Of a DNA stretch of 64,000 bases, positions 9,865 through 58,168 are shown one piece after another (position 1 is the stretch's first letter; each line of letters starts with the position of its first letter). Origin of the DNA: Eubacteriaceae bacterium. Lineage in GTDB: Bacteria; Bacillota; Clostridia; Peptostreptococcales; Anaerovoracaceae. The position numbers and the translations under genes are program-made. The stretch is from assembly GCA_902362805.1 (NCBI GenBank), contig CABIXY010000001.1, forward strand, positions 702,737 to 766,736. Reading direction: 5' to 3'. The notes beneath the pieces were generated by a model. The model worked only from the letters and a program-made list of their open reading frames with translations. It was not told the DNA's origin and searched no databases.

Positions 9865-9884
9865 GCCATGAAGTGAACTTGTCC

Positions 9885-10218
9885 CAGGATGACATCTCGT
9901 TACAATAATTTTATGCTTTTTGGGCATATCTTTGTATTCCTGCGTAACCGGATTGCTGCCGGAAGGCTTTACCAGGGGGGTATATCCGATACTGGTTACT
10001 TTTTGGTACCAATACTCTGTTTCGAAGACTGTCATCAGGCCATAAAAGTAACCACAAGCTGTACTTTTATAGATTTTGTAAGCGATATGAACTATTTTTG
10101 AAGAGAATGACATCTGATGCTGCCGTGGAGTTACGCACAAACTTTAGAAAGGCATCAAAAAACCTAACTCTATTATAAAAAAAGCCTGACTTATACCCCT
10201 ATACCGTATATGCACGAC
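9885..10218 (-). repeat. long diverged dispersed repeat R (copy 1)
   Basis: Read on the minus strand, this matches 26189-26546 over most of its length: a TATACGG-AGGGGTATA start, TTTTTTGATGC, GCGTAAC, GGTTACTTTT, then a well conserved core with AAAGTAACC, ATCGGATATACCCC and AATCCGGTTACGC. GTAACC/GGTTAC arms can fold. A 108-codon minus-strand frame spans it (9814-10140) but changes between copies are not concentrated at third codon positions, so I treat it as non-coding or a decayed gene. It fills the gap between the tRNA and the racemase gene. Confidence 0.6.
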
Positions 10219-13077: not shown

Positions 13078-13524
13078 TCGTATGACATTCTGCCCAAAGA
13101 GGGGGACACATCCGCCTTCATTTTCGTTTTTTTGCTTGTTACTTGCACCTTTTTTGATTATCGTAAACCAATCCGCCTTCATTTTTGAATTCCAGCTCCC
13201 TACTTGCGCAAAAGAGAAGAATTAAGACGAATCTGGCGAATTTCAAGGTCAGCTCAAGGGCATTTGCCCTTCCGTACGGTTGAACCCAGCCAGATTCATG
13301 ACATATATTTCGTTTAATGGTAATTTATGTATGTAAGCATGAGCTCCTGCAAAGGGAGTGGTGCAAGTAAACTTAAAAAAATTAAAAATGAAGGCGGAAA
13401 TCTATGCCCGGGCAGCATTTTGTGCCGTGATGCTCTGCTTTTTTCAAGAATGAAGGCGCGCAGAGCGCTCAGGAAACGCAGGACGCAGTTTGATTAGAAT
13501 CGCTTTAGGCAGAATGTCATACGA
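13078..13524. mobile_element. MITE-like element bounded by 17-bp terminal inverted repeats
   Basis: TCGTATGACATTCTGCC at 13078-13094 is repeated as its exact reverse complement at 13508-13524. Inside, TTACTTGCACC (left, 13141-) mirrors GGTGCAAGTAA (13362-), and the CCGCCTTCATTTT motif (two copies left) mirrors AAAATGAAGGCGG (right). No transposase frame is inside and no clear target duplication is visible. A near-match of one end is at 28641-28660. It fills the gene-free gap after the XRE gene. Confidence 0.5.
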
Positions 13525-26188: not shown

Positions 26189-26546
26189 GTGATATATACG
26201 GGCAGGGGGTATACACCGAGCGTTCTTTACCATAAGGTTAGGCTTTTTGATGCTGCCCAAGAGGTTTCGCGTAACGCTGCGGCGGTGTCAGAGACCATAT
26301 GCCGCCATACGCCTTGCATTTAGACATGATTCCCTGCAGAATTCATGAATATGCTGCTTCTGGTTACTTTTGTGGATTGTGAACAGCCATTGCGGAGGAG
26401 AAATTGATAGAAAAAGTAACCGGAATCGGATATACCCCTCTGTTAAAGCCTTCTGACAGTAATCCGGTTACGCGAGATTGTGCAGATATGATCAAAAAGC
26501 ATAACCTTATCGTAACAGGAGGTTCTCCTGGGGCATTTTCCCTTCG
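26189..26546 (+). repeat. long diverged dispersed repeat R (copy 2)
   Basis: This matches the minus strand of 9885-10218. Shared blocks are ATATACGG with AGGGGGTATA, TTTTTGATGC, GCGTAACG, GGTTACTTTTGTGG, AAAGTAACC, ATCGGATATACCCCTCTG, TAAAGCCTTCTG and AATCCGGTTACGC. GTAACCGGA and TCCGGTTAC are 9-bp inverted arms. A 67-codon frame (26404-26607) translates to the same residues as copy 1 over about 45 positions, yet stops and frameshifts break it upstream. It fills the gap before the YtrA-type regulator. Confidence 0.6.
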
Positions 26547-30534: not shown

Positions 30535-30568
30535 AGAAAAGGACCGAAATCTGCTCGGTCCTTTTCTA
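30535..30568 (+). terminator. terminator of the MerR/serine hydrolase operon
   Basis: AGAAAAGGACCGA (30535-30547) pairs with TCGGTCCTTTTCT (30555-30567). Confidence 0.85.
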
Positions 30569-30572
30569 ACAT

Positions 30573-30778
30573 AGGAAATATCGTCCGAAGGACGTATTTC
30601 CGTATGTTTCATCGTTCGCTTTGCTCACTCCTCCAGTTGCAAACGCTCCTTTCGCTGTCCGTTTCGCCTAGCCAGCTAAAGCTGGGGCGAAAAGGCAAAG
30701 AACGTACCTTACGAAGCGTCGCCCCTTACGGGCGACATGAGTGCATAGGAGCGACGCTCCGTTATGCACTCGTTTTTT
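30573..30778. repeat. composite structured repeat: delta hairpin, beta element (minus), gamma terminator module
   Basis: Three modules follow one another. GGAAATA (30574-30580) pairs with TATTTCC (30595-30601) around TCGTCC-GAA-GGACG. The beta element reads on the minus strand, with TTTCGCC/GGCGAAA (30662-30668, 30686-30692) and CCAGCT/AGCTGG. The gamma module has GTCGCCC/GGGCGAC (30718-30724, 30730-30736), then GAGTGCATA/TATGCACTC enclosing GGAGC/GCTCC and a T6 run. Related modules are at 57041-57167 and 57297-57405. The end touches the stop codon of the MocR gene. Confidence 0.7.
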
Positions 30779-32159
30779 ATGCCGACCATAAATGGATCAT
30801 TTCCCTGATGGAACTTTCCAGCTCGTCCAGAGGAATCTGATTATAGTAAAAAATCAAAGCGGCAGTATCCTGGTCGGTCAGGCTGGCTGCCGGCAGAACA
30901 TTGAGCCCGATGGTTTTTGCCATCTGCGATAACTTGTCGGGATTTTTTTTTGTACGCACCTTCAACATGATATTGATGCCGGAGTTGGTGTTGGTAGGTG
31001 TCGTAAAACCATTTCCGAACTTCGAAAAAGCGGCCAGGGCTGTCTGCAGCTTCTGTGAATAGAGATTGCGCAGTTTCTTGATGTTGGTATAATACAGCCC
31101 CTCTTCCATGAAAAGTGCCAGGGTCAGCTGCTCTGTCTTCGAACAGGTCTGCGTATAGTCGCTTTTGATGGCGTCAAAGATATCCACCATTTCCTTGGGC
31201 AAAACCATGTAGCTGATTTTGATGGCAGGAAAGAGGGTGGAAGAGAAAGAACCCAGATAGACGACACGAGCGTTCTTGTCCAGTCCCTGCAGGGCGGGAA
31301 CTGGTTTGCCGAAGTAACGCAGTTCACTGTCGTAGTCGTCTTCCAGGATGAAACTGTCGTTTTCGCTTGCCCACTCCAGGAGACGGTATCGCTTGCCGAT
31401 GGGCATGACAGAGCCTGTGGGAAATTGGTTGGACGGACTGACGTAGACCGCGGCTGGAATGTTGGTGGGCAGTTTTTCAATCATGATTCCGTCGGTGCCG
31501 ACAGGAATCTTCGTAATACTCATGCCGTGGTCGCGGAAGATATTCTGCACTGGCAGATAGCCGGGATCCTCCGTAGCGACGTGACCGATGTCCATCTTGC
31601 GCATAATACGGCACAGATGAGTGGTCAGCTGCTGGGTGCCGGCACCGATGACGATTTGGTCTGGATTGCAGGTGACGCCGCGGGAGGTGTAGACATATTT
31701 GGAAATTTCAAAGCGCAGTGCTGCTTCTCCTTTGGGGTCGCTTTCAAAGAGCAGCAGATGGGAGTATTCGTTTAGCACTCTCGCCATACATTTCTTCCAC
31801 TTGTTAAAATCAAAACAGGACAGGTCGTACTTATAGGCGGAATCCTCAAAGGTGTAAGTGGTAAAGTCATGGCTGATATTGGCATGCTCCTGGTCCTTGG
31901 CAAAATGCCCTGCGATACTTGCCACATAATATCCTGATTGAGGCTTGCTGATCACGTATCCCTCCACCAGCAACTGATTGTAGGCCAATTCCGTCGTAGT
32001 AACGCTGATGGACAGGTCCTTAGACAGGCGGCGCAGGGAGGGCAGCTTTTCTCCCGCATTCATATTGCCGCAGGTGATTTCTCCTTTCAGATAACGATAT
32101 AACTGTATATAGAGTGGCGCCGAAGTATTGTCGTTAAACTGTAGTGTAATTGGCTTCAT
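30777..32159 (-). CDS. MocR/PdxR-type GntR regulator with aminotransferase-like domain
   Basis: A 460-residue regulator with an N-terminal winged HTH (PLYIQLYRYLKGEI, KLPSLRRLSKDLSISVTTTELAYNQLL) and a fold-type I aminotransferase-like domain (about 110-460) with IVIGAGTQQ, YVSPSNQFPTGSVMP and the FILEDDYDSELRY segment. The site that normally reads SFSK and holds PLP reads SFSS here (Ser307), so an internal aldimine cannot form. GGAGGT precedes ATG 32159. It is divergent from an ECF S component, with an 11-bp-arm palindrome between, the arrangement of PdxR regulators controlling vitamin B6 uptake. Confidence 0.87.
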   Translation of the reverse strand: MKPITLQFNDNTSAPLYIQLYRYLKGEITCGNMNAGEKLPSLRRLSKDLSISVTTTELAYNQLLVEGYVISKPQSGYYVASIAGHFAKDQEHANISHDFTTYTFEDSAYKYDLSCFDFNKWKKCMARVLNEYSHLLLFESDPKGEAALRFEISKYVYTSRGVTCNPDQIVIGAGTQQLTTHLCRIMRKMDIGHVATEDPGYLPVQNIFRDHGMSITKIPVGTDGIMIEKLPTNIPAAVYVSPSNQFPTGSVMPIGKRYRLLEWASENDSFILEDDYDSELRYFGKPVPALQGLDKNARVVYLGSFSSTLFPAIKISYMVLPKEMVDIFDAIKSDYTQTCSKTEQLTLALFMEEGLYYTNIKKLRNLYSQKLQTALAAFSKFGNGFTTPTNTNSGINIMLKVRTKKNPDKLSQMAKTIGLNVLPAASLTDQDTAALIFYYNQIPLDELESSIREMIHLWSA

Positions 32160-45787: not shown

Positions 45788-46921
45788 TTACACCAGCCCG
45801 TTATTTACCAAAAACCTGGCAGCGTTAACCTCGTCTTTTAGGATACGGCGCGCATATTTTGATAAAAAGATGCTGTCACTGCTTTTGGCGCGCAGACTAT
45901 CTGCAATGAACAGGGTTACCGTTTTGCGATTGGCAATTTTGAGGATTTCCTTGATTTTACCTAAGGAGGCAAGAGATTTTAAAGAGGCCAGGGACAAGTC
46001 GATATCTAGATCCATATCATCATTGGCCTCATTGACTGCCTGGTTCAGCGCCTCGAGGAAGCGATCCTTACGATATAAAATCAATGGATCTAATTCAAAA
46101 ATCTTTGCCGCTTCATCAGCCTGTTTTAAGGTGCGCTTATCGAATTCGTTCTTTGCGAAAGTGTAATAGCCGCCATCAAAGACATCAAAAGTTTTCATGG
46201 TATCCAGATAGCCGATGCGAAGAATTCTCTTTGTGTTTGCGTGATCAAAGACGAGAAAGTCTCCCAGATCCCACTTGCTTTTGATGAAGGTCAGGTTTGG
46301 AACTTCTTCCAGTTCCTCTGGCTTGAAACGTCCGATGGCATCTAAGTAGACAGCGATGACTTCTGTAGCGCCTTTTTCTAAAGCCATGGGAACAGGCAGA
46401 TTATCCTCATAACCACCGTCGATAAAATCTTTTCCATCGATTTGGTGGGTGTGGACTGCTGGAAAGGCGGATGCGCTGGCGGTAATATAGTCGTAGAGCT
46501 TACCCTTTGGAATATCCTCCTTCCAGACATAGTAAGGCTTCATGGCAGGAAATTCGACTGTCAGAAGTCCGTATTCAATTGGAGATTTGCGAATCACTTC
46601 TTCGTCAATATACTCTCTCATCATCTTCTGCATGCCCGTCGAACCAGCGCCGCGGTTGACAACAAATTCTTTGGCAAAGTCCTGGATTTGAGCGTCAGCA
46701 TCTACATCAAAGATCATGTCTGTTGCCATTTCCCGCCAAAGATTTGCTGTTTTCACCACATCGCCCTGGACGACCATGGCGCCATTGATGGCGCCGACTG
46801 AAACGCCGACTACAATATCTATCCTTATGCCCAGTTCTTCCAAGGCCTGCCATACTCCACACTGGTATGCCCCGCGAGAACCTCCCCCGCTTAAAACTAA
46901 TGCAACTTTTCTTTTATTCAT
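45788..46921 (-). CDS. patatin-like phospholipase family protein
   Basis: A 377-residue lipid acyl hydrolase. The oxyanion loop GGGSRGAYQCG, the nucleophile GVSVG and the catalytic DGGYEDN dyad motif are all present in the correct order within the first 220 residues; a C-terminal helical extension of about 130 residues follows, as in bacterial YqhO-like members. GGGGGA lies eight bases before ATG 46921. It converges with the AAA-ATPase gene with six bases between. It probably cleaves membrane phospholipids in the cytosol. Confidence 0.9.
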   Translation of the reverse strand: MNKRKVALVLSGGGSRGAYQCGVWQALEELGIRIDIVVGVSVGAINGAMVVQGDVVKTANLWREMATDMIFDVDADAQIQDFAKEFVVNRGAGSTGMQKMMREYIDEEVIRKSPIEYGLLTVEFPAMKPYYVWKEDIPKGKLYDYITASASAFPAVHTHQIDGKDFIDGGYEDNLPVPMALEKGATEVIAVYLDAIGRFKPEELEEVPNLTFIKSKWDLGDFLVFDHANTKRILRIGYLDTMKTFDVFDGGYYTFAKNEFDKRTLKQADEAAKIFELDPLILYRKDRFLEALNQAVNEANDDMDLDIDLSLASLKSLASLGKIKEILKIANRKTVTLFIADSLRAKSSDSIFLSKYARRILKDEVNAARFLVNNGLV

Positions 46922-46944
46922 ATACACAATCCCCCTTAATTTAT

Positions 46945-47147
46945 GGTATACTATGATATTATACCATGTGCATTCCTTTAAAAATTCAATTGAAGCACAT
47001 GATTCAATGAACGCTACCTAGCGACAACGTCGTTAGATTGATGCGTTCATTATACTACGACAATTCCATTGAACATAAAATCGAATGTCGTAATTCAATG
47101 GTTTCTACCTTGCGATAAAGTCGAAAGATTTTGAAACCATTATACCC
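46945..47147 (-). repeat. tandem structured repeat, family alpha (about 90-bp units)
   Basis: On the minus strand, TATAAT boxes at 47144-47139, 47054-47049 and 46963-46958 are 90 and 91 bases apart. After each of the first two comes a type A hairpin (GGTTTC/GAAACC; GAACGC/GCGTTC) whose loop ends in CGC(A/T)AGGTA, then ATTGAAT, then a type B hairpin (TACGACA/TGTCGTA; CATGTGC/GCACATG) with loop TTC...GGAAT. Loops and boxes are conserved while stems differ with full pairing. Matches 57178-57425. It sits between the divergent patatin and sirtuin genes. Confidence 0.75.
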
Positions 47148-47169
47148 TGAAAGGGAGGTAAATGACAAG

Positions 47170-47895
47170 ATGGATGAAAGATTAAAAAAAGTAATTGATG
47201 AAAGCGAAAACATCGTTTTCTTTGGCGGCGCAGGTGTATCTACAGAAAGCAATATACCCGATTTTCGCTCTGAAAGCGGGTTATACCACGCACAGCAGAA
47301 ATATGGACACTCACCAGAAACGATGCTGTCACACACATTTTATAAGAATAACACGGAGCTGTTTTTCAAATATTATAAAGAGAATCTCATTTATCCAGAG
47401 GCAGAGCCAAATGACGCACATAAAGCCCTGGCCAAGCTGGAGGAAATGGGAAAGCTGAAGGCAGTTATCACACAGAATATCGATGGTCTACATCAAAAAG
47501 CTGGCAGCAAAAAGGTGTACGAGCTGCACGGCAGTGTACTTCGCAACTACTGTGAGAGATGCGGCAAGTATTACGAAGCAGAGTACATCATGGACGAATC
47601 CCATTGCAAAGATGGCATTCCCCACTGCGAATGCGGCGGTATCATTAAGCCGGATGTCGTCCTCTATGAAGAAATGCTTAACGAGGATTGCATTCAAGGA
47701 GCGGTAGATGCCATATCAAAAGCGGACACTATGATTATCGGCGGGACTTCCCTGGTAGTGTATCCCGCGGCAGGTCTGATTAATTACTTCCAGGGCAAAA
47801 ATTTGGTACTCATCAATAAGACACAGACGCCTTATGATAGCAGAGCCAGCTTGGTCATCTATGATTCCATCGGAAAGGTTATGAGATTAGAATGA
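47170..47895 (+). CDS. cobB: NAD-dependent protein deacylase (sirtuin)
   Basis: A 241-residue sirtuin that removes acyl groups from lysines using NAD+. Motifs are FFGGAGVSTESNIPDFRS, ITQNIDGLHQKAG, the catalytic His in ELHGS, zinc cysteines in CERCG and HCECGG, and GGTSLVVYPAA. GGGAGGT places the start at ATG 47170. GAGVSTES-type sirtuins of this length are usually deacetylases. It overlaps surE by four bases, forming an operon with surE and a DUF2156 gene. Confidence 0.93.
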   Translation: MDERLKKVIDESENIVFFGGAGVSTESNIPDFRSESGLYHAQQKYGHSPETMLSHTFYKNNTELFFKYYKENLIYPEAEPNDAHKALAKLEEMGKLKAVITQNIDGLHQKAGSKKVYELHGSVLRNYCERCGKYYEAEYIMDESHCKDGIPHCECGGIIKPDVVLYEEMLNEDCIQGAVDAISKADTMIIGGTSLVVYPAAGLINYFQGKNLVLINKTQTPYDSRASLVIYDSIGKVMRLE

Positions 47896-57177: not shown

Positions 57178-57425
57178 ATGGTATAATGAACGTACAATCC
57201 TCTCAACTTCGTTGCAAGGAAACGTTCATTGAATCATGACGTTCGATTCTATATTCAGAGGAATCGTCATGGTATAATAGTTCCAGAATCAAAGGGCGTT
57301 GCCTTTCTGCCCCAAGCTTGCTTGGCTAGGCAGAACGGACAGCGGAGTGAGTTATGCGAGCGTAGGAATATTGCGAAGCAATATGTTGCCGAGAGGCAGG
57401 AACTATTGAATCATAGAATTTTATT
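57178..57425 (+). repeat. tandem structured repeat, family alpha, with a beta element nested in one hairpin
   Basis: TATAAT at 57182-57187 and 57273-57278 are 91 bases apart. GAACGT/ACGTTC forms a type A hairpin, ATTGAATCATGACG/CGTCATG a type B hairpin with loop TTCGATTCTATATTCAGAGG. The next type A stem, AGTTCC (57279-57284) / GGAACT, encloses a full beta element (TTCTGCC/GGCAGAA at 57305-57311/57329-57335; CCAAGC/GCTTGG; then AATATTGC/GCAATATG). It ends with ATTGAATCATAG 26 bases before the FadR-type gene, so it must be in its 5' leader. Confidence 0.75.
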
Positions 57426-57442
57426 GAAAGATGGAGAAGCAC

Positions 57443-58168
57443 ATGGAGAACGACAAGCTATTAGATAAACTGGTAATCAATGAGATTAAAACACAATCTG
57501 ACTACCTGGCTGATAAAATAAAGAATATGATTGTATCACGGGAGTTTCATGACGGGTTTGTTTTTCCCAATGAAAATGAATTCTGTAAAAAACTGAATGT
57601 AAGCCGCAGTACGCTGCGAGAGGCGTATAAGATTCTGGATACCCAAGGCTTTATACACAGGACAAAGCACGGTACTTATGTAAAGTGCAGGGATGACATT
57701 GCCAAGCAGGGAGACTTTGTAGCCAGTTTGGAATTGGCAGACAACCATGAAATGGTGGAGTTCGTCTGTGCTTTGGAACCCGAAGCAGTCTTTCTCGCTG
57801 CCCAGAAGGTGGACGAAGAGGGTCTGGCAAAATTGGAAGAGGTCATGATTGCCTGTGAAAAGGCAATGGATAACTCAAAGGATCTGGTGGAGATGAATTA
57901 TCAGTTCCACGCCTGCATCAGAGAATTGGCAAAGAACAACCTGATTACCAGTGCTCTGACCGCATACTATGATATTTTCAATCATCAGATCATTGAGGAT
58001 ATCTATGCTGTCAGTACAGATACGGTGGACTTTAAGAGAAATTCTCTGGTACAGCATAGAGAACTGTTCGATGCGCTGAAGAATCACGAAGCCGAAAAAG
58101 CAAAGAGCCTGGCATACAATCATCTGCTGGACTCCATGAAATTCCAATTGAAAATGAGTGGAAAATAG
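57443..58168 (+). CDS. FadR-subfamily GntR transcriptional regulator
   Basis: A 241-residue regulator: winged HTH (SREFHDGFVFPNENEFCKKLNVSRSTLREAYKILDTQGFI, visible in parts) and an all-helical FCD effector domain (about 95-230) with the metal/ligand histidine region MNYQFHACIRELAKN and the QHRELFDAL helix. GGAGAA places the start at ATG 57443 (57431 is the alternative). It lies between the mutase cluster and the convergent glycyl radical operon. FCD regulators usually sense carboxylic acids. A matching operator precedes glmL at 51344. Confidence 0.88.
   Translation: MENDKLLDKLVINEIKTQSDYLADKIKNMIVSREFHDGFVFPNENEFCKKLNVSRSTLREAYKILDTQGFIHRTKHGTYVKCRDDIAKQGDFVASLELADNHEMVEFVCALEPEAVFLAAQKVDEEGLAKLEEVMIACEKAMDNSKDLVEMNYQFHACIRELAKNNLITSALTAYYDIFNHQIIEDIYAVSTDTVDFKRNSLVQHRELFDALKNHEAEKAKSLAYNHLLDSMKFQLKMSGK

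Follow-up and report, generated by a model that had tools for sequence, protein, structure and literature searches.

Two arrays of boxes and hairpins in the window

The window, that is the whole stretch of 64,000 nucleotides analysed here, carries two loci at which TATAAT boxes alternate with two types of hairpin. Locus 1 (minus strand) lies in front of a patatin-like gene (45788-46927), while locus 2 (plus strand) ends at a GntR-family gene (ORF 57431-58168). The features are as follows.

47139..47144, minus strand, first TATAAT box of locus 1, with TTGTCA 18 bp upstream
47100..47138, minus strand, hairpin A, stem GGTTTC/GAAACC
47093..47099, minus strand, ATTGAAT box between A and B
47056..47092, minus strand, hairpin B, stem TACGACA/TGTCGTA
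47049..47054, minus strand, internal TATAAT box
47009..47048, minus strand, second hairpin A, stem GAACGC/GCGTTC
47002..47008, minus strand, second ATTGAAT box
46965..47001, minus strand, second hairpin B, stem CATGTGC/GCACATG
46958..46963, minus strand, last TATAAT box of locus 1, with TGG before it and the patatin-like gene behind it
57182..57187, plus strand, first TATAAT box of locus 2, preceded by TGG
57188..57227, plus strand, hairpin A, stem GAACGT/ACGTTC
57228..57234, plus strand, ATTGAAT box
57235..57271, plus strand, hairpin B, stem CATGACG/CGTCATG
57273..57278, plus strand, second TATAAT box, preceded by TGG
57279..57404, plus strand, enlarged hairpin A, stem AGTTCC/GGAACT
57303-57384, plus strand, nested stretch of 82 nt within the enlarged hairpin A, between two GTTGC copies
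57405..57411, plus strand, second ATTGAAT box
57412..57447, plus strand, degenerate hairpin B (read from the sequence), overrunning the start of the GntR-family gene

The repeat unit thus consists of TATAAT, hairpin A, ATTGAAT, hairpin B and TGnTATAAT, and measures about 91 bp. The alternating order described for the two loci in the initial annotation is present with all the features it named, the three A and three B stems are those it listed, and in each of the three complete B units TTGAAT is spaced 38 from the TATAAT that follows it (minus strand, starts at 47098/47054 and 47007/46963; plus strand, starts at 57229/57273). Its count of five units was too high: three A+B units in the window are complete, and a fourth A and a degenerate B come in addition. 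A gapped pattern of the layout matches the window exactly three times, compared to a mean of 0.01 in 100 shuffles. The three units fold stably both as DNA (z -3.9 to -5.1, on both strands) and as RNA (z -4.4 to -6.4). A default model search of the window returned two of them together with a weak match on the opposite strand; the third, missed because adjacent units overlap by their shared box, was recovered once the search filters were off.

The nested stretch of locus 2 represents a second structured element of 82-85 nt, situated inside the loop of hairpin A and bounded by copies of GTTGC (or GTTGC/GTTGT). A strict pattern finds nine distinct copies, one of them in another genome (G008); the sites are 57298-57389 in the window and L045, L062, L063, L066, L106, L145, L191 and L194. 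Other repeats were also seen in the window: an intergenic repeat at 30562-30779 is 92-96% identical to stretches beside other arrays of Emergencia timonensis SN18 (L087, L091), an interspersed repeat at 13113-13459 resembles parts of L001 and L063 at about 71%, and 9870-10078 and 26337-26545 are mutually inverted copies (72%).

Copy number and distribution of the units

The repeat family is real and larger than first reported. A search with a model (R1, built from 24 units) identified at least 146 units in the genome of E. timonensis SN18, in which the stem pairs are largely maintained. This species is a close relative, the flanks of at least 500 bp in the window aligning to SN18 at 82-92% identity. 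For SN18 the counts are minimum values, since 150 out of 1981 candidates were scored, and 140 of the matches, listed with coordinates, were used for the array counts. These 140 units form 70 arrays of one to six units (31 single, 19 with two, 12 with three, six with four, one with five and one with six), the longest being 547 bp, and the flanks of the arrays are unrelated to one another. Separate models for A and B gave at least 138 and at least 139 matches in SN18, mostly at the same arrays when compared by eye among the matches listed; isolated copies of A or of B also exist, and in one case A and B are fused at an AAGGAA word common to both.

A pattern scan of species genomes gave 13 stretches, nine in SN18, one in an Emergencia MAG and one in an uncultured Eubacterium MAG; the remaining two (L010, Methanobrevibacter; L012, Labilibaculum) had no hairpin context around them and were dropped as chance. 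The R1 model found five units in each of the two MAGs. Matches to R1 were obtained in seven of 61 relatives, in 24 genomes of a sample of 297 from the order and in three of a sample of 391 from the class, SN18 included; since these order and class samples were searched with stringent filters, a small number of scored candidates for each genome and a model trained on Emergencia, absence is weak evidence. The unit-rich genomes are G157, G232, G245, G247, G269, G291 and G324. In 20 stretches from across the order the boxes and hairpin A are kept, while unit lengths and B sequences differ. Exact pattern scans of viral contigs gave no matches, plasmid scans found no unit pattern, and phage scans gave a single 24-base match (E 0.7), taken as chance.

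The contigs of one draft genome (G008) stop inside arrays (L138, L140, L142, L143), and unit counts in draft assemblies are therefore probably too low.

Covariation of the stems

In the 24 units of the model 97.8% of the stem cells pair, and 107 cells are changed on both sides compared to 33.3 in shuffles and 1-7 when the partners are slid. Further pair types show no excess (28 against 30.3 in shuffles). The pattern extends to other genera: among 44 A hairpins (41 distinct) from nine other genomes 98.8% of the cells are paired, with 91 changed on both sides (31.5 in shuffles, 0-13 with slid partners). A strict parser, which resolved 117 units from 56 of the 68 SN18 loci fetched, found fully Watson-Crick A stems in 84 and B stems in 74 of them. 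When the arms are shuffled the shares are 9% for A and 11.5% for B. The parsed units comprise 38 different arm pairs of A and 46 of B. The covariation is thus strong against both controls; as the units share descent, the shuffles overstate its significance and the slid partners are the fairer control. The A stems GAACGC, GATTCC and GGTTCC recur in several genera, so that independent changes are fewer than the cell counts imply, and some units are mosaic, combining arms of two types.

The conserved loops and compensatory changes had at first been read as selection on folding. The covarying, structured nature of the family stands, while folding as RNA is weakened by the data below. Moreover, covariation need not mean selection, as template switching between the two arms of a hairpin would give the same kind of pattern.

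The boxes resemble extended -10 elements

In their sequence the TATAAT boxes resemble the extended -10 boxes of promoters, the start sites discussed here being predicted. In SN18 the first box is exactly TATAAT in 65 of the 70 arrays, and in these 65 the T, T and G of a -35 element at 17-bp spacing occur 47, 39 and 27 times and the TG at -3/-2 before the box 55 and 51 times. A -35 score of at least 4 upstream of the first box is reached in 34 cases, with 16.4 expected from shuffles. The first boxes accordingly have the parts of a sigma-70 promoter, a -35 element and an extended -10 at proper spacing, while conservation at the internal boxes (58 of 59 exact) is limited to the extended -10. TTGAAT was considered as the -35 box of the next TATAAT and rejected, the two lying 38 bp apart. 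Among these 65 first boxes, at least three (L044, L059, L092) follow a B remnant and not a native promoter.

The last box is exact in 41 of all 70 arrays, differs by one change in 22 and by more in seven, and the 22 single changes all fall at positions 3-6, none at T1 or A2 (the strict parser, which requires T at position 1 and A at position 2, gives 40 exact of 58). In 20 of 58 arrays a copy of the array's own A 5' arm follows (4.1 expected), and the far edge is hence often no clean unit end. Of 36 units from nine other genomes, 35 have TGn before the end box. Around the predicted start, SN18 units have a pyrimidine at -1 in 116 of 117 and a purine at +1 in 112 of 117. In the 36 units of the other genomes +1 is A in 22 and T in 14, of which 13 come from one genome, and the start-site mark thus appears weaker in other genera.

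Genes behind the arrays

According to gene calls made with a simple ORF script, the next gene is codirectional in 62 of the 70 SN18 arrays (p 2e-11), at a median of 66 nt from the last box. This placement in promoters and orientation towards genes had been missed by the initial annotation, correct as it was on the layout. Ten downstream proteins were put to NCBIfam and nine were named: UMP kinase, Lgt, RuvC, MurC, serine hydroxymethyltransferase, MurA, pyruvate kinase, LigA and glutamate racemase. The tenth we take to be Asp23-like.

Upstream of pyrH, promoters with and without units were found. From 31 genomes 30 loci were obtained, 16 with a readable start. TGnTATAAT is present in 15 of these 16 and absent in G017; it is directly followed by one or two units in five genomes (G001, G002, G003, G008, G012), stands without units in nine, and in G005 is accompanied by another hairpin. 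The distance from the last box to the ATG is 30-67 nt in the five occupied and 24-127 nt in the nine unoccupied promoters, an overlap which does not prove that the spacing would be exactly restored. As the occupied and unoccupied promoters belong to different genera, loss is as possible as gain. At locus 1 the same two unit types occur in the window and in SN18 in reversed order, and at locus 2 one complete unit in the window corresponds to three in SN18, the flanks being conserved in both cases.

Among 25 arrays of relatives 22 have a called downstream gene, and eight of these lie at genes also bearing a copy in SN18, where about 0.4 would be expected if some 4,500 genes (an assumed number) were equally targeted. 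These are pyrH four times (not independent cases), lgt, murC, glyA and the Asp23-like gene; the SN18 copy at glyA carries the nested insert and that at the Asp23-like gene is an A-only remnant. Arrays at ruvC are found in both G157 (by eye) and G002. This sharing is moderate evidence: strong promoters may be favoured targets, and the pattern would fit retention for function as well as repeated targeting.

Variants of the unit were also observed. In L148, L149, L150 and L153 another hairpin (AACCTC...GAGAGAAC) replaces A between TATAAT and ATTGAA, the genomes concerned being G002, G003 and G012. Upstream of lgt in SN18 (L092, L199) alternating dimers occur, with a strongly altered A loop and AAAAGC and GGAAGC stems, and the array shows two-unit steps.

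Structure at the level of RNA or DNA

One explanation for the arrays is a cis-regulatory RNA leader, in which a transcript reading through from upstream folds into a chain of hairpins that controls the gene behind it and is tuned by the number of units. The strong covariation, the stable RNA folds, the codirectional genes, the genes shared between relatives and SN18, and the location of hairpin B entirely within the predicted transcript all agree with such a function. The predicted start, however, lies 7 nt after the box, so that the 5' arm of hairpin A is upstream of it and a transcript from that box would lack this arm. Pairing in RNA would then predict a decay of the A stems in first units, and none is seen: of 58 first units 43 have a perfect A stem, as do 41 of the 59 units further along, and in single-unit arrays the stem is perfect in 17 of 23. 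Nor is G-U pairing enriched on the sense strand (24 G-U against 50 A-C mismatches, or 20 against 28 per distinct arm pair), which further weakens the RNA reading, and DNA folds about equally well on both strands. Read-through from farther upstream, or a recent insertion, could also explain the paired stems of first units. Nevertheless, a structure at the DNA level is at least as likely, judged from these sequence patterns, as folding in RNA, and with the diversity of the genes served and the differing unit number at locus 2 also speaking against it, a regulatory leader is considered rather unlikely. The family may serve as a warning that covariation by itself is no proof of RNA function.

A putative element specialised for promoters

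The reading preferred here, with a probability of about 0.52, takes the repeats for promoter-specialised short interspersed elements that rebuild a -10 box at their far end. The unit looks like a small element able to multiply inside promoters without cutting off the downstream gene. A unit A-ATTGAAT-B-TGnTATAAT would follow immediately on an extended -10 box and, as it ends in an extended -10 box of its own, the gene would keep a nearby promoter. Units would then be gained or lost in tandem by recombination between the identical boxes. The paired stems would be mainly a property of the DNA, where every internal -10 box could be flanked by a hairpin on either side, and the hairpins are probably needed for copying or recombination. 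Insertion as the direction of change, an active promoter at the last box, as predicted, and a service of the hairpins in the spread are thus the suppositions of this model.

Several observations favour it: the high copy number in arrays with unrelated flanks, promoter-like first boxes and codirectional genes; the sparing of T1 and A2 in the variants of the last box, the pyrH promoters with and without units, and the differences between the window and SN18 at both loci; and the paired A stems of first units, the lack of G-U enrichment and the retention of boxes and hairpin A in other genera. Weighing against it are the absence of any mobile parent or enzyme among the Y1 transposases searched, the ambiguity of gain and loss at pyrH, the shared genes, which fit functional retention equally well, the B remnants before some first boxes, the weaker +1 mark elsewhere and the unclean far edges. 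As to how such an element would enter, a tentative and rather doubtful proposal, which would make it a genetic element of a new class, is that it does so as a DNA hairpin at the open transcription bubble of an extended -10 promoter, leaves a working -10 box at its far end and is recognised by hairpin shape and not by sequence, the stems being free to drift as long as they remain paired.

An alternative, somewhat less probable still than a regulatory leader, is that nothing mobile in the usual sense is involved, and that a tandem promoter architecture spreads by microhomology recombination at the shared TGnTATAAT words, with stems kept complementary by template switching and not by selection. 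It would account for the identical boxes at the unit edges, the orthologous loci with units swapped in order or number, the mosaic stems and the fusion of A and B at the AAGGAA word, and agrees with the failure to identify a transposase (Y1 having been searched), yet leaves unexplained that the A loops and box spacing are conserved across genera.

Hairpins beside a fixed short word are typical of REP-like and IS200/IS605-derived elements, and Y1 genes are present in eight of 11 other carrier genomes. Movement of the repeat by a Y1 (HUH) transposase is nevertheless very improbable, since G001 (SN18), G232, G254 and G269, three of them rich carriers, have no Y1 match; Y1/REP as the present mover was rejected on this ground, past action aside. 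No mobile parent or enzyme for the unit was found in the transposase family searched (Y1), and the 10 Y1 loci had no nearby match to the Emergencia-trained A and B models.

Small repeats usually damage the promoters they enter. If the preferred reading of a promoter element is true, a family that starts exactly at the -10 box of housekeeping genes and supplies a new one would illustrate how a repeat can become numerous while doing little harm, and a spreading part would underlie many of the promoters in this group of gut bacteria. SN18 is cultured and public RNA-seq exists (GSE165976, given in PMC8364193), and the main claims are therefore testable soon.

Comparison with known repeat systems

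That no named family is known to have this layout, as stated at the outset, agrees with Rfam, which gave a single tRNA for the whole window and, in a permissive search of window positions 46900-47200 and the L093 array, weak matches far below the gathering threshold. A published description of the family was not recognised in the open PMC literature. A coding repeat was rejected, as 90- and 91-bp units are mixed and no frame is kept, and so was a terminator, no T run being seen by eye behind either hairpin. Integron attC sites are hairpins recognised by shape and, as here, variable in stem sequence, but no cassettes were seen between the units.

At least seven arrays appear in Table 6 of the SN18 taxonogenomics paper (PMC10213047) as CRISPRs with a single spacer, namely C8 300401, 522369 and 1944682 and C9 530585, 853819, 1910685 and 1927335. 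A CRISPR was rejected here, as unique spacers are lacking and whole units repeat. REP families are likewise short palindromic intergenic repeats, described with a GTAG or CGTC tag (PMC3733652), which is missing at the corresponding place in the unit, and as regards REP/RAYT, a Y1 transposase had no match in four of 12 carrier genomes, SN18 (G001) included.

Closest in style are BOX and Correia elements, as far as the descriptions drawn on extend. Correia elements and other promoter-carrying MITEs are, like the unit, small repeats upstream of genes with sigma-70-like promoters (PMC10969869). MITEs are, in that account, bounded by terminal inverted repeats and target duplications, whereas the unit has only a shared TATAAT box and starts at the promoter's own -10; its edges are direct TATAAT boxes, and its inverted repeats are the two internal hairpins. 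With TATAAT as the first box in 65 and as the last in 41 of 70 arrays, a fixed word is here indistinguishable from a target duplication. As to an autonomous relative, for which the Y1 family was searched, the largest array (547 bp) is too short for a transposase gene. BOX of Streptococcus pneumoniae shares with the unit a modular build, tandem module copies, stem-loops and many copies per chromosome (PMC3049150). In BOX, fixed ends (boxA and boxC) surround the boxB copies, whereas in the present arrays it is the complete A+B unit that is repeated, with TATAAT boxes on either side, and the parts of the BOX description used here place no BOX at a -10 box (PMC3049150). The unit, with its layout (A-B)n between TATAAT boxes, is set apart from BOX on the basis of that description. 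Membership in these known kinds thus fails on the features tested, and a promoter-carrying interspersed repeat is the best fit.
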